Source of the DNA: an uncultured bacterium
GTDB lineage: Bacteria > Bacteroidota > Bacteroidia > CAILMK01
DNA: 22,677 bases
Reading direction: 5' to 3'
NCBI GenBank assembly: GCA_903835275.1
Contig: CAILMK010000118.1
Coordinates: 1 to 22,677 of the forward strand
Part shown: positions 6,046-16,101 of the stretch, piece after piece
How the letters are laid out: each line of letters starts with the position of its first letter
How positions within the stretch are numbered: the stretch's first letter is position 1
Translations under genes and position numbers: made by a program
Notes under the pieces: generated by a model
What the model was told of the DNA's origin: nothing
The model's database searches: none
The model's input: the letters and a program-made list of their open reading frames with translations, nothing else

Positions 6046-7500
6046 ATGACCACTGAAAACGAACCGCTTTCCAGACTGAGAAAAAACGATAATCTTTCCT
6101 ATTTTGAAAGCATTGCCTCCGGCCGCCATAGCTACAGGCGCAAGCATCATTATTACTGGGATGAGATCACCAAATACTGCGATTATTTTTCCCATCGTGA
6201 TATCAGCGTCCTCGAAGTAGGATGCGGAACAGGTGAACTGATTTCCCAGATAAAAGGCAAGCGTAAACTCGGGCTGGATTTCAGTCCGAAGATGATTGAG
6301 GAAGCAAAGCGCAACGGAACAGGCGATACCGAATTCCGTGTGATGGATGCCGAAAACCTGGAGCTGAATGAAAAGTTTGACCTCATCATTATCTCCAATG
6401 TAATAGGGTATGTAAATGATGTGGAAGAAGTTTTTATGCAATTGCATAAAGCCTGTCACCCGCAAACAAAAGTGGTGGTTACTTATTACAATTACCTGTG
6501 GGAACCGTTCTTGAATTTCAGTGAGAAAATAGGTCTGAAAAAGAAAACACCTCGTCAGAACTGGCTTTCCCGCCACGATGTAAAAAATCTTTTGTTCATT
6601 TCCGGATTTGATGTATACCGCACTTCCATGCGGATGCTCATTCCGTTTTATATTCCGCTGATCTCAGCTTTGTTCAACAGGTATATTGCCAAGCTTCCCA
6701 TCATACGGCACTTGTGCATTAATATCTACGATTTCGCGATGCCGGAAAACCGTTCCCCGAAGGAGGAATACGAAAAGAAATACACTACTTCTGTTGTAAT
6801 TCCTGCTCGTAATGAAAGTGGAAACATAGAAGATGCTATTTTGCGCCTGCCGAAATTCGGCAAGGATGTAGAGATCATTTTCATTGAAGGAAATTCAACG
6901 GATGATACCTGGCAGAAAGTGCAGGAGATAGCTGCCAAATACAAGGACACACACAATATTAAAATTGGTCAGCAGGACGGCAAGGGCAAGGGCGATGCCG
7001 TGCGTAAAGGCTTCAAAATGGCGACCGGGGATATTTTAATGATCCTTGATGCTGACCTGACCGTTCCGCCGGAAGATATTCCGAAGTTTTATGATGCCAT
7101 CGCCTCCGGAAAAGGTGATTTCATCAATGGCTCCCGCCTGGTGTATGCCATGGAAAAGAATGCCATGCGCCCTTTGAATTTGCTCGGCAATAAATTTTTC
7201 AGCCTTGCGTTTTCATGGTTGCTGGACAGGCCATTTAAAGATACCCTTTGTGGTACCAAGGTGATCTTCCGCGAGGATTATATAAAGCTGATTGAAAACA
7301 GAACCTTCTTCGGGGAATTTGATCCGTTTGGCGATTATGACCTCATTTTCGGTGCTTATAAACTCAATCTTAAGATCGTGGAACTGCCAATCCGCTACCG
7401 TGAACGTACGTACGGAGAAACAAATATTTCCCGCTTCAAACACGGGCTTATTCTATTGAGAATGACGGCTTTTGCTGCACGGAAGATCAAGTTTATTTAA
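6046..7500 (+). CDS. Bifunctional SAM methyltransferase / GT2 glycosyltransferase
   Basis: Two enzymes appear joined in one 484-residue chain. Residues about 35-220 are a class I SAM-dependent methyltransferase: motif I is VLEVGCGTG (55-63), followed by LGLDFSPKMIEEA and FDLIIISNVIGYV. Residues about 247-480 are a family 2 glycosyltransferase of the dolichol-phosphate-mannose-synthase type, with SVVIPARNESGNI at its start, GKGKGDAVRKGF, the metal-binding DAD at D335-D337 in LMILDADLT, and RYRERTYGETNISRF near the end. GT2 enzymes of this type load a sugar onto polyprenyl phosphate at the cytoplasmic face. No strong membrane helices follow the GT2 part, so it probably binds the membrane peripherally. 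Its place 46 bases after a GT-C glycosyltransferase suggests a donor-making and donor-using pair, with the methyltransferase modifying the same product. The substrates of both halves are unknown. Confidence 0.88.
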   Translation: MTTENEPLSRLRKNDNLSYFESIASGRHSYRRKHHYYWDEITKYCDYFSHRDISVLEVGCGTGELISQIKGKRKLGLDFSPKMIEEAKRNGTGDTEFRVMDAENLELNEKFDLIIISNVIGYVNDVEEVFMQLHKACHPQTKVVVTYYNYLWEPFLNFSEKIGLKKKTPRQNWLSRHDVKNLLFISGFDVYRTSMRMLIPFYIPLISALFNRYIAKLPIIRHLCINIYDFAMPENRSPKEEYEKKYTTSVVIPARNESGNIEDAILRLPKFGKDVEIIFIEGNSTDDTWQKVQEIAAKYKDTHNIKIGQQDGKGKGDAVRKGFKMATGDILMILDADLTVPPEDIPKFYDAIASGKGDFINGSRLVYAMEKNAMRPLNLLGNKFFSLAFSWLLDRPFKDTLCGTKVIFREDYIKLIENRTFFGEFDPFGDYDLIFGAYKLNLKIVELPIRYRERTYGETNISRFKHGLILLRMTAFAARKIKFI

Positions 7501-14204: not shown

Positions 14205-14885
14205 TTAAGACTCGAACTTGTAACCGATGCCCTTGATCGTTTTTATACTTTCAGGGTCAATTTTTTCACGAATCTTCCGGATATGTACATCCACGGTACG
14301 GTCACCTACAAATACTTCATTACCCCAAACCTGCTCCAATAGTTTATCCCTGCTGAAAACCTTGCCGGGATGGCTGGCAAGCAGATAAAGCAATTCAAAT
14401 TCCTTGCGGGCAAAATGAAGTTTTTGTGACTTATATATTACCTCGTAAGAGTTACGATCTATAATAAGATCCCCCATATCCAGGAGTGTGGATTCGGATT
14501 CATCCTTATTCTTACGCTTAAAGATCGCTTTTATACGACTCAATAAGGCACCCGGCTTAATCGGCTTGTTTATATAGTCGTCCGCACCGGCGGAAAATCC
14601 TGCAATTTCAGAATATTCCTCTATACGTGCCGTAAGGAATATAATATGTGACTCGGAAAGCTTTTTGTTTTTGCGCATTTCCTGGCAGGTGGTAATGCCA
14701 TCCATTTCGGGCATCATTACATCCAGCAGAATCAAGTCGGGAAGATATTTATCCGCTACCTTGAGTGCCTCTTTACCGTTGGGAGCAGAGTAAACGGTAT
14801 ATCCTTCCTTCTTCAAGTTATATTCAAGAAACTCTAAGATATCCGGATCGTCATCAACTATCAATATTTTAGCATTCTCTTGCAT
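14205..14885 (-). CDS. OmpR/PhoB family response regulator
   Basis: This is a 226-residue DNA-binding response regulator and the partner of the kinase that follows. The receiver domain (1-120) has the acidic pocket D11/D12 in LIVDDDPDI, the phosphoacceptor D55 in LILLDVMMPEMDG, T85 in FLTARIEEY and K107 in YINKPIKPG. The winged-helix domain (about 135-226) has HFARKEFELLYLLASHPGKV, then VFVGDRTVDVHIRKIREKI and IKGIGYKFE, the OmpR-type signature. The ATG at 14885 suits the family's usual beginning. A plausible promoter lies 92 bases upstream, and the leader can fold into a stem-loop. The two putative small RNAs lie further upstream on the same strand. The regulated genes are unknown. Confidence 0.95.
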   Translation of the reverse strand: MQENAKILIVDDDPDILEFLEYNLKKEGYTVYSAPNGKEALKVADKYLPDLILLDVMMPEMDGITTCQEMRKNKKLSESHIIFLTARIEEYSEIAGFSAGADDYINKPIKPGALLSRIKAIFKRKNKDESESTLLDMGDLIIDRNSYEVIYKSQKLHFARKEFELLYLLASHPGKVFSRDKLLEQVWGNEVFVGDRTVDVHIRKIREKIDPESIKTIKGIGYKFES

Positions 14886-15006: not shown

Positions 15007-15141
15007 TGAATAAAAATACCTTTAAAACCATTGAATTATATCTTGTTCAATGTTACCAAATTGTTAACCCCCTTGGCTAACCAGTTGCAAATGCCTGAAA
15101 ACGAATAAGAATACTTTAAGAACGCTCAACCCTATAAACAG

Positions 15142-15170
15142 AAAAAGGGCGAAACTTGTGGTTTCACCCT
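15142..15170 (-). terminator. Intrinsic terminator of small RNA copy 1
   Basis: AGGGCGAAAC (15146-15155) faces GTTTCACCCT (15161-15170) around TTGTG. On the minus strand five T (15146-15142) follow the stem. On the plus strand no T run follows, so the signal is directional. Confidence 0.75.
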
Positions 15171-15232
15171 CTTCCATTGCCAAAATATCAAAACTACAAC
15201 TGCCTATGAAAAATTGTTAAACTTAATTAACG
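15142..15232 (-). ncRNA. Putative small RNA, copy 1
   Basis: Read on the minus strand, this is a predicted transcript of about 90 nucleotides starting some four bases after a perfect -7 box. It ends in the stem AGGGTGAAAC/GTTTCGCCCT (15170-15161 with 15155-15146; one mismatch; loop CACAA) followed by five T, an intrinsic terminator. Bases 15161-15214 are identical, 54 of 54, to 15458-15511 in copy 2, while the first 18 or so bases of the RNA differ. Strong conservation of both stem arms with a changing loop points to RNA. A small frame on this strand (15177 down to 15064, 37 codons) runs through the terminator and is not kept in copy 2, so I do not call it. I do not recognise the RNA family. 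Confidence 0.65.
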
Positions 15233-15235
15233 ATA

Positions 15236-15265
15236 CAAAGATACCTTGGATATAACACCAATAAA
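15236..15265 (-). promoter_or_regulatory. Promoter of small RNA copy 1
   Basis: The minus strand reads TATCTTTG at 15243-15236, a perfect -7 box, and has TTT within a CTTTTAT block 19 bases upstream at the -33 place. Both blocks are kept in copy 2 while the spacer is not. Confidence 0.65.
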
Positions 15266-15277
15266 AGATGAAAATTA

Positions 15278-15298
15278 CAAAAATCTTACGCTTTCAAA
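15278..15298 (-). promoter_or_regulatory. Conserved box upstream of small RNA copy 1
   Basis: On the plus strand CAAAAATCTTACG, one variable base, then TTTCAAA. The same box occurs at 15576-15596, in each case beginning 35 bases beyond the end of the -7 box. It would sit at about -46 to -66 of the RNA. An activator site or an UP-like element would explain it. Confidence 0.5.
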
Positions 15299-15369
15299 TC
15301 TAAGATTTTGATCATGTGTTTATAATAACTTAACACATATTGCGCAAATCAAAGCATTGATGTTCAATA

Positions 15370-15411
15370 AAAACGAGCGTTAAAACCTCAATTCAAAAAC
15401 CATCTCGTTTT
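15370..15411. other. Inverted repeat between the two small RNA copies
   Basis: AAAACGAG (15370-15377) is inverted against CTCGTTTT (15404-15411) with a 26-base loop. It lies in unique sequence between the two repeated units, just downstream of the copy 2 terminator. Significance unclear. Confidence 0.3.
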
Positions 15412-15438
15412 CAGGAAAAGTTACATCCCCTAAAACGG

Positions 15439-15467
15439 AAAAAGGGCGAAACTAATAGTTTCACCCT
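15439..15467 (-). terminator. Intrinsic terminator of small RNA copy 2
   Basis: AGGGCGAAACT (15443-15453) faces AGTTTCACCCT (15457-15467) around AAT, with one mismatch, and five T follow on the minus strand. The loop is shorter than in copy 1 because an extra pair forms, as expected if the stem is under selection. Confidence 0.75.
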
Positions 15468-15530
15468 CTTCCATTGCCAAAATATCAAAACTACAACTGC
15501 CTATGAAAAATCTTTAATTTCTACTTAACA
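15439..15530 (-). ncRNA. Putative small RNA, copy 2
   Basis: Second copy of the putative small RNA, about 92 nucleotides, same strand and same layout: -7 box, variable 5' part, 54-base invariant core (15511 to 15458 in the RNA direction), terminator hairpin, five T. The offset between copies is 297 bases through the RNA body and 298 through the promoter and upstream box, so only one indel separates the units. The invariant core contains unpaired-looking runs such as TTTTTCATAGGCAGTTG, a candidate contact region. The neighbours are the response regulator operon downstream and a divergent GNAT gene upstream. Confidence 0.65.
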
Positions 15531-15533
15531 ACT

Positions 15534-15563
15534 CAAAGATACCACCTCTTATTACATTATAAA
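15534..15563 (-). promoter_or_regulatory. Promoter of small RNA copy 2
   Basis: The minus strand reads TATCTTTG at 15541-15534 with the CTTTTAT block 19 bases upstream, as in copy 1. The 19 bases between are unlike copy 1, which is the pattern expected of a working promoter. Confidence 0.65.
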
Positions 15564-15575
15564 AGGAGGAAAATT

Positions 15576-15596
15576 CAAAAATCTTACGGTTTCAAA
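15576..15596 (-). promoter_or_regulatory. Conserved box upstream of small RNA copy 2
   Basis: Same 21-base box as at 15278-15298, with a single difference at its variable base, and at the identical distance from the -7 box. Confidence 0.5.
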
Positions 15597-15678
15597 ATTA
15601 TCAATCACAAATTAAAAGTTTTTGAGGTAACTTCATCGCTCGAAAATTTATACAAATTTTGAATGTAACTTACTGAAT

Positions 15679-16101
15679 ATGATAAACATTGAAAGAATAA
15701 CAAGCCCTGAAGGAATGGAATGGGCCTTTGAGATCAGGAAAAAGGTATTTGTTGAAGAACAAAAAGTAGATCCTTCCGAAGAGTATGATGAATTTGAGAT
15801 CAGCTCCCATCATTACCTTGCTATGGAAGGAAACCATCCTGTTGGCACTTGCCGCTGGAGGATCACAGATAAGGGAGTTAAACTAGAACGCTTCGCAGTA
15901 TTGGAGGGTGCACGGAATGACGGAGTGGGAAGGCATTTGGTGGAAGTATGCCTGGAGGATGTCCCAAGGGATAAAGGCCCTATTTACCTGCATGCGCAGG
16001 TGCAAGTCATTCCTTTTTATGAAAAATGTGGCTTCGTAGCTGAAGGCGATGAATTTATTGAAGCGGACATACGTCACAGAAAGATGGTATACGTCGGATA
16101 A
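15679..16101 (+). CDS. GNAT family N-acetyltransferase (YjcF/ElaA-like)
   Basis: This 140-residue protein is a member of the GCN5-related acetyltransferases, which move an acetyl group from acetyl-CoA to an amine. The N-terminal pattern EIRKKVFVEEQKVDPSEEYD, then HHYLA and GTCRWRI, is typical of the YjcF/ElaA-like branch. LERFAVLEGARNDGVGRHLV contains the acetyl-CoA pyrophosphate loop (RNDGVG). AQVQVIPFYEKCGFVAEGDE and the closing HRKMVYV complete the fold. The length is normal for a single-domain GNAT. The acceptor is unknown. It stands alone, divergent from the small-RNA units, with only a weak -7 candidate (AAATTTTG, 15654-15661) upstream. The sequence just after it, with two echoes of AATTTGCT (16101-16125), is a low-complexity junction. 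Confidence 0.93.
   Translation: MINIERITSPEGMEWAFEIRKKVFVEEQKVDPSEEYDEFEISSHHYLAMEGNHPVGTCRWRITDKGVKLERFAVLEGARNDGVGRHLVEVCLEDVPRDKGPIYLHAQVQVIPFYEKCGFVAEGDEFIEADIRHRKMVYVG

Follow-up and report, generated by a model that had tools for sequence, protein, structure and literature searches.

The two tandem units on the minus strand of the window, by which we mean the whole stretch of 22,677 nucleotides that was analysed, are very probably small RNA (sRNA) genes of a narrow and apparently undescribed family. This reading is supported by the joint recurrence of promoter, core and terminator in seven copies, including three single copies that lie beside other genes in a related genome, and, together with a terminator helix that covaries, it makes the proposal of an earlier note on this DNA, two sibling sRNA genes, the best account of the locus. 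As for function, the explanation towards which we lean, with somewhat more confidence than doubt, is that of tandem sRNA genes with their own promoters and terminators whose RNAs carry an antisense seed that would block translation starts. The family is probably ordinary in kind and new in sequence, resembling the FopS sRNAs of Bacteroides in action and, by the tests made here, not belonging to them.

A repeat search of the window found two direct minus-strand copies spanning 15133-15597 and lying 297 bases apart. The previously claimed pair of near-identical tandem units was borne out by a 94-nt block (15127-15220 and 15424-15517; 89% identical, spacing 297) and a 38-nt block (15261-15298 and 15559-15596; 84% identical, spacing 298); the identical run of 54 bases was recovered as described, and the run beyond the variable loop comprises 16 identical bases instead of the claimed 15. 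With up to three mismatches allowed, a 25-base piece of the core has two occurrences in the window, and 100 dinucleotide shuffles contained none. Read 5' to 3', each unit consists of an upstream box, a TTT-rich -33 region, the -7 element TATCTTTG, a leader of 22 to 23 bases, the core TTTTTCATAGGCAGTTGTAGTTTTGATATTTTGGCAAT and a long terminator hairpin with T's at its end (Table 1), so that all three promoter parts named in the earlier note (-7 element, -33 region and upstream box) are present in the window.

Table 1. Positions in the window of the parts of the two putative sRNA units and of the adjacent genes
Feature	Positions	Strand	Remark
Copy 1 upstream box (TTTG.A...GTAAGA.TTTT)	15278..15299	-	GTAAGA 46 nt ahead of TAnnTTTG
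Copy 1 promoter -7 element TATCTTTG	15236..15243	-	inferred transcription start near 15228-15232
Copy 1 5' leader, type A, small hairpin GTTAATTAAGTTTAAC	15214..15235	-	leader comparison and predicted fold
Copy 1 core TTTTTCATAGGCAGTTGTAGTTTTGATATTTTGGCAAT, predicted antisense seed	15176..15213	-	alignment of seven copies
Copy 1 intrinsic terminator hairpin	15141..15175	-	T run is part of the 3' arm of the hairpin
Copy 2 upstream box	15576..15597	-	GTAAGA box comparison
Copy 2 promoter -7 element TATCTTTG	15534..15541	-	inferred transcription start near 15527
Copy 2 5' leader, type B	15511..15533	-	predicted pairing with part of the core in copy 2
Copy 2 core, same as copy 1 core	15473..15510	-	alignment of seven copies
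Copy 2 intrinsic terminator hairpin	15438..15472	-	fold and covariation
Response regulator gene (Response_reg and Trans_reg_C), neighbour	14205..14885	-	adjacent, partnership not conserved
GNAT acetyltransferase gene, neighbour	15679..16101	+	similar gene by the units in G001 and by the box in G002 (by eye)

The distribution of the units is narrow. A DNA search of 40 near genomes gave matches in six, with units in the genome of the window (G000), a genome of the same genus (G001) and a Lac Pavin MAG of the same family (G003), and partial matches in G002, G014 and G021. The covariance-model search proposed in the earlier note, with copy number and neighbours recorded, was performed with a model built from all seven copies (R1) and counted two copies in G000, two in G001, three in G003 and none in G002 across the four genomes of the family; the copies form a tandem pair in G000 and G001 and are dispersed over three contigs (C2, C82 and C140) in G003, where the neighbours differ. 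No copies were found in the other eight genomes of the order among that part of the first-look candidates that was scored. A 29-base core, searched with up to three mismatches, was found in three of 395 genomes of the class, its seven occurrences all being exact, and 21 exact core bases were found in four stretches of the GTDB 220 contigs, belonging to uncultured bacterium isolate Umea2p1_bin-1064 and Bacteroidetes bacterium LacPavin_0920_WC57_MAG_38_8; these are probably G001 and G003 themselves, in a scan from which the window's own records were possibly left out. Contig C12 of G002 starts within the upstream box and continues into a similar GNAT gene, and since the contig edge falls inside the box, the units of G002 may have been lost in an assembly gap. 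The multiple copies and their dispersal in G003 are also what might be expected of a mobile or repeat element of the MITE or REP type that carries a hairpin by chance. This we regard as very improbable, because the repeat search found no inverted repeats around the units, just two or three copies occur per genome in three of the four genomes of one family, conservation tracks promoter, core and terminator rather than the ends, the exact 25-base core is absent from viral contigs, and copy 1 has no plasmid match.

Both window RNAs fold better than all 200 of their own shuffles (z of -3.16 and -3.86), mostly by virtue of the terminator; a simple terminator scan reports copy 1 only, and copy 2 has a like stem with the tail CCCTTTTTC. 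When the seven copies were aligned by fitting to the model, 98.9% of the cells of the terminator helix were paired and 8 of its 13 pairs showed changes in both partners; for the structure as a whole the covariation was 0.461 versus 0.240 (sd 0.035), a value reached by none of 500 shuffles and higher than in all six slid versions, on an alignment whose fitting favours pairing. RNAalifold on the unfitted alignment gave double changes in 6 of 26 predicted pairs and a covariation term of +0.3 of -10.95, that is, no bonus. It is on the fitted alignment, then, that the units are seen to keep an intrinsic terminator of their own through compensatory change.

No reading frame is conserved in the seven copies, whose open frames vary in length and sequence, and the outcome that was to have spoken against RNA genes, a frame kept in place of the stem, did not occur: no frame is kept, and the stem persists through double changes. 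An ATG at the end of the core in six of the seven copies could be taken as the start of a small open reading frame encoding a leader peptide, an idea to which we assign a practically negligible probability; the frames that follow the ATG vary from copy to copy in both length and sequence and continue into the terminator, G003 C140 has ATA, and the 29-base core is without any change, hence without synonymous ones. A peptide gene was accordingly rejected for want of a kept frame and for the ATA in G003 C140. Rfam 15 gave no match in the window at the gathering cut-off, the best match below it being L20_leader over copy 2 (26.2 bits against a cut-off of 58.7, E 0.0078). Open-licence PMC papers were searched for RNAs of this kind and for the letters of the core, and none was recognised as describing this family.

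As to the promoter, TA..TTTG is invariant in all seven copies, and GTAAGA starts 46 bases ahead of TAnnTTTG in six of them and 47 in the seventh, so that, by motif, every copy has a promoter of its own. Judging from this layout, transcription of each unit would begin on the minus strand at a TAnnTTTG promoter of its own, of the Bacteroidota type, probably with the help of an activator bound to the GTAAGA box, and would stop at the intrinsic terminator, giving an RNA of about 90-100 nt. When up to three mismatches are allowed, the 22-base pattern of the box has 28 matches in the four genomes, a number that represents background, since the reversed pattern gives nearly as many (27). Twenty-seven matches were examined, the one at the contig edge of G002 C12 being omitted: six belong to sRNA copies, 20 fall within open frames that are 134 codons long or longer, and a single one is intergenic (G002 C55:17528). 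At this last place (L075) the box is followed 45 bases downstream by TATCTTTA, before a gene that by eye starts MKKISILLFVLMSCASLINAQ, looks signal-peptide-like and is cut by the contig end. Co-regulation of that gene with the sRNA units is possible, and the near-equal spacing makes a shared activator a lead rather than a result.

A position upstream of a two-component operon, noted previously, holds for the window and G001; it is not a conserved association. The response regulator has one orthologous match each in G001, G002, G003 and G006, and units adjoin it only in the window and G001, the orthologues of G002, G003 and G006 having none in the preceding kilobase, so that the two-component operon is to be seen as a mere neighbour. 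The GNAT gene lies beside the units in G000 and G001 and, likeness being judged by eye, beside the contig-edge box in G002. In G003, the C2 copy stands beside genes for a class I tRNA synthetase (I/L/M/V type) and a protein like geranylgeranyl reductase, the C82 copy beside a glycosyltransferase gene and one that has no Pfam match, and the C140 copy beside sodium symporter and radical SAM genes. These surroundings bear on the alternative that the units are cis-acting leaders or attenuators of downstream genes such as the two-component operon: both units do lie upstream of the response regulator, on the same strand, in the window and G001, and two of the three G003 copies (C2 and C82) have a same-strand gene about 50-60 bases downstream. 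Every unit, however, ends in a terminator of its own, the genes that follow at the G003 loci are not those of the window/G001 locus, and the C140 copy points against both of its neighbours. We therefore consider cis action improbable, and as a leader of the two-component operon it is largely rejected, given the unlinked regulator orthologues.

The most conserved part of the presumed RNAs is the core, the last 29 bases of which are identical in all seven copies, the first nine being identical only in the four copies of G000 and G001. Compared pairwise, these four have identical cores in all six pairs, boxes that are 83-93% identical, terminators 83-97% and outer flanks 49-63%. In the mechanism that we favour, the invariant and largely unstructured core would act as the antisense seed; by base-pairing over the translation starts of a few mRNAs, the RNAs would keep these from being translated, as has been reported for FopS and GibS; two copies would raise the dose, and the differences in their 5' leaders may govern how accessible the seed is. 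The complement of the core in the window, AUUGCCAAAAUAUCAAAACUACAACUGCCUAUGAAAAA, resembles an A/C-rich leader that runs into a start codon followed by lysine. Six copies have AUG in this complement, in the form AUGAAAAA in the four G000/G001 copies and AUGAAU in G003 C2 and C82, with none in C140. This resemblance to a translation start suggests repression like that by Bacteroides FopS.

Searches for the targets gave weak evidence of antisense action at starts. ATGAAAA begins 97 of 649 start regions (pieces of G001 and G003). Among 652 first-ATG start regions, six match the core complement in at least 12 of 14 positions, compared to 1.38 (sd 1.53) after dinucleotide shuffling (fraction 0.02), and the same test gave no excess inside genes (1 versus 0.56) or further upstream (0 versus 0.74). 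The other thresholds gave fractions of 0.125, 0.085 and 0.085, and the counts for the reversed complement were 90, 21 and 2 at 10, 11 and 12 positions and 0 at the remaining threshold, against 83, 22, 6 and 1 for the true complement, so that the two score alike at 10 and 11. This test replaces an earlier run (8 versus 1.28) that contained loci fetched by means of the core. Predicted duplex energies, computed for 399 G001 start regions on 40 stretches, two of which (C76 and C93) had been picked because of the core, were better in start regions than in plain shuffles, mildly better than in dinucleotide shuffles (0.036 and 0.027) and not preferential when set against coding windows (0.25 and 0.23). 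A test in fixed register with the ATG showed no consistent enrichment, one of 13 offsets reaching 0.02. Near-matches to the core complement in the four genomes numbered 11 outside the units themselves, versus 10 for the reversed control; among the 11, one in G000 C358 ends four bases before an ATG, one in G001 C76 runs into an ATG and one in G000 C69 begins 25 bases inside a gene. Neither of the candidate targets in G000 C358 and G001 C76 has a clear orthologue: the C358 protein has no relative in G001 and just distant ones in G002 and G003, and the C76 protein (L041) is a member of a large repetitive family, one query from which had 113 matches in G002. In the window itself, a TonB-dependent receptor gene at 332-2509 starts with ATGAAAAAG and has a predicted duplex with the core of -18.1 kcal/mol, which is unexceptional (the start at 6046 has -22.0).

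Pairing seeds usually need less than 29 bases. The identity of the 29-base core in all seven copies exceeds this usual length, and this, together with the weak target enrichment, leaves room for a second view of the core, in which the units are sRNA genes and the core is a protein-binding or titration site (a sponge) in place of an antisense seed. We judge such a role to be rather unlikely, though to be reckoned with: the core does not consist of a short motif in repeat and in most copies folds little, its complement looks like the translation starts of Bacteroidota, and the copies of the genus share UUUUUCAUAG with a FopS seed that is reported to pair.

The siblings differ in their leaders. 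Leader type A (TATCGTTAATTAAGTTTAACA) belongs to the copy nearer the regulator in G000 and to the one nearer the GNAT gene in G001, the two being 96% identical; the remaining two leaders are 71% alike, and mixed pairs of types A and B 56-64%. The view of the earlier note that these are siblings with a common contact region and a different 5' part thus receives some support, with a type A leader kept at this level across two species and the order swapped. The terminators of both G001 copies are 97% alike and look as if homogenised. By predicted folding, the type A leader can form a hairpin of its own, and the type B leader pairs with the core in G000 copy 2, not so in the type B copy of G001; leader-core pairing in type B is accordingly a speculative element of the model.

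The closest counterpart in layout is FopS, described as 14 paralogous Bacteroides sRNAs with the seed consensus GTGTTTTTCATAGTATTAGATTTAAGGTTAACAAA, which contains TTTTTCATAG; FopS-10 is reported to block susC translation by binding adjacent to the start codon (PMC11697453, the consensus in its methods). Like the window family, FopS is multicopy and has a TAnnTTTG-type promoter, a short RNA, an invariant seed and a variable intrinsic terminator. Tandem arrangement is also shared, two FopS units in Phocaeicola massiliensis (L332:135-205 and 399-475) being 264 bases apart. In sequence, UUUUUCAUAG is found both in the FopS seed and in the four copies of G000 and G001; the remainder of the seed is different, and UUUUUCAUAG is absent from the copies of G003. 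With regard to the FopS R1' seed, only TTTTTCATAG is shared exactly, in four of the seven copies, and the common ground of the two families amounts to ten bases in four copies plus the layout. The RNAs predicted here are about 95 nt long with a 5' leader and GTAAGA box, whereas those of FopS have 65-70 nt. A model trained on FopS (R3) misses the window units, aligning its seed to the core in one copy of the family (E 3), and R1 detects none of 13 FopS loci. Alignment of the copies with the FopS consensus gave P values of 0.048-0.056 for G000 and 0.66-0.92 for two G003 copies. By these tests the units are not members of FopS, as seed and models do not match. FopS binds RbpB, an RRM protein, and a motif scan of the few loci read found no RRM-like protein. 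FopS seeds were also seen in Parabacteroides and Prevotella records of the plasmid collection, beyond the Bacteroidaceae that the FopS paper names (PMC11697453), and in the literature searched the consensus letters came up in that paper and in one unrelated HIV paper.

Other known sRNAs are further removed. GibS of Bacteroides, whose unstructured conserved 5' region is reported to pair with start regions (PMC7366714), has a conserved promoter sequence and an unstructured conserved region in common with the window family and differs from it, by description rather than by letters, in its 145 nt and its non-canonical promoter motif. Rfp18 of Flavobacterium psychrophilum is likewise compared by description, as a Bacteroidota sRNA that affects target mRNAs and is said to be strongly structured (PMC9723704), unlike the window family. 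The tandem siblings of other phyla (LhrC, Omr, Cia-dependent and NmsR) are adjacent or multiple near-copies with a common contact region, a likeness for which no sequence relation is claimed. Some of them act under a response regulator. LisR, for instance, is described as activating lhrC1-5 (PMC5880928). The response regulator next to the window units, in contrast, is a non-conserved neighbour.

A search with R1 of the 395 genomes of the class yielded further weak matches in G169 and G173, of which that in G173 C24 was discounted as probably due to chance. At the G169 locus there are two units in tandem, their core being TTTTCATAAGTAGTAG(TAG)TTTAGGTTA. When the DNA around this locus was used as a query, 14 of 39 relatives gave a match; one of these (G419) matched at the terminator end only, and the remaining 13 are all members of lineage f23 (24 genomes), with tandem pairs in G169, G395 and G396. 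The units (L100:1166-1260 and 1501-1595; L142-L151, L153, L154 and L158) make up an apparently undescribed sRNA-like family with a TTTTCATAAGTAGTAG core and a variable terminator, and it resembles the window family in its TTTTCATAAGTAGTAG-type core, variable terminators and tandem pairs. R1 scores 16 of 17 f23 units, at a low 16-36 bits, and its 14 best matches in those 15 loci are all units, in loci collected starting from an R1 match. Conversely, an f23 model (R2) run on five loci has the seven window-family units among its best eight matches at 20-24 bits, with a non-unit second at 22.7, and does not list the window-family units in its search of the 395 genomes; homology of the two families is suggestive only. 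As regards FopS, R2 in 13 FopS loci ranks nine FopS units first and misses five of the 13 loci; R3 in 20 loci places three f23-lineage units first of 42 matches (E 0.06-0.09); and the alignment of three f23 units with the FopS consensus is better than that of shuffles (0.002 to 0.015), in a set of comparisons whose P values are inflated for units that the models had found, the one with FopS alone being independent. Because of these cross-searches and consensus alignments, FopS and f23 are probably related, and the window family and f23 possibly so.

Beyond these lineages, R2 matched 14 of the 395 genomes. Twelve further R2 places were inspected: a TTTTCAT core is present in four (L202, L213, L204 and L208), TTTTTATAGGTAGTAGTAG in L203, and the rest are without a clear core. 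The units at L202:1501-1578 (G143), L203:1501-1573 (G067; core TTTTTAT) and L213:1501-1569 (G139 C13) have a clear terminator hairpin after the core, and that at L208:1501-1542 (G102) has no clear one; the G143 and G067 units compare with the FopS consensus at 0.37 and 0.29. Two 16-base patterns occur in 41 and 44 loci of viral contigs, of which a hairpin-plus-T filter kept none and one, respectively. The latter, L264:380-455, lies on a contig that is listed as viral and combines TACATTTG and TTTTCATAGGCAGTTGTTGG with a terminator; it may be a carried sRNA or chance (one in 85). The phage collection was queried with an f23 unit, which found no match, and with the FopS consensus only. It is tempting, as a tentative and rather doubtful generalisation, to see FopS, f23, the window family and the scattered units (G143, G139 C13, G102, perhaps G067 and G290) as branches of one Bacteroidia-wide multicopy sRNA class, in which an anti-start seed UUUUCAU (complement AUGAAAA) would be joined to a lineage-specific 3' extension that picks the targets.

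To conclude, the trans-acting sRNAs of Bacteroidota have, in the literature consulted, been worked out mainly in gut Bacteroides, which are described as lacking an obvious Hfq as well as Shine-Dalgarno sites (PMC7366714). The kept GTAAGA box of the present family points toward an activator, and the combination of a UUUUCAU-type seed, a TAnnTTTG promoter and a terminator offers a rule by which genomes can be searched. A second, environmental multicopy family of the same layout, with a similar anti-start element and a different extension, would mean that this kind of translational control may be general in the class.
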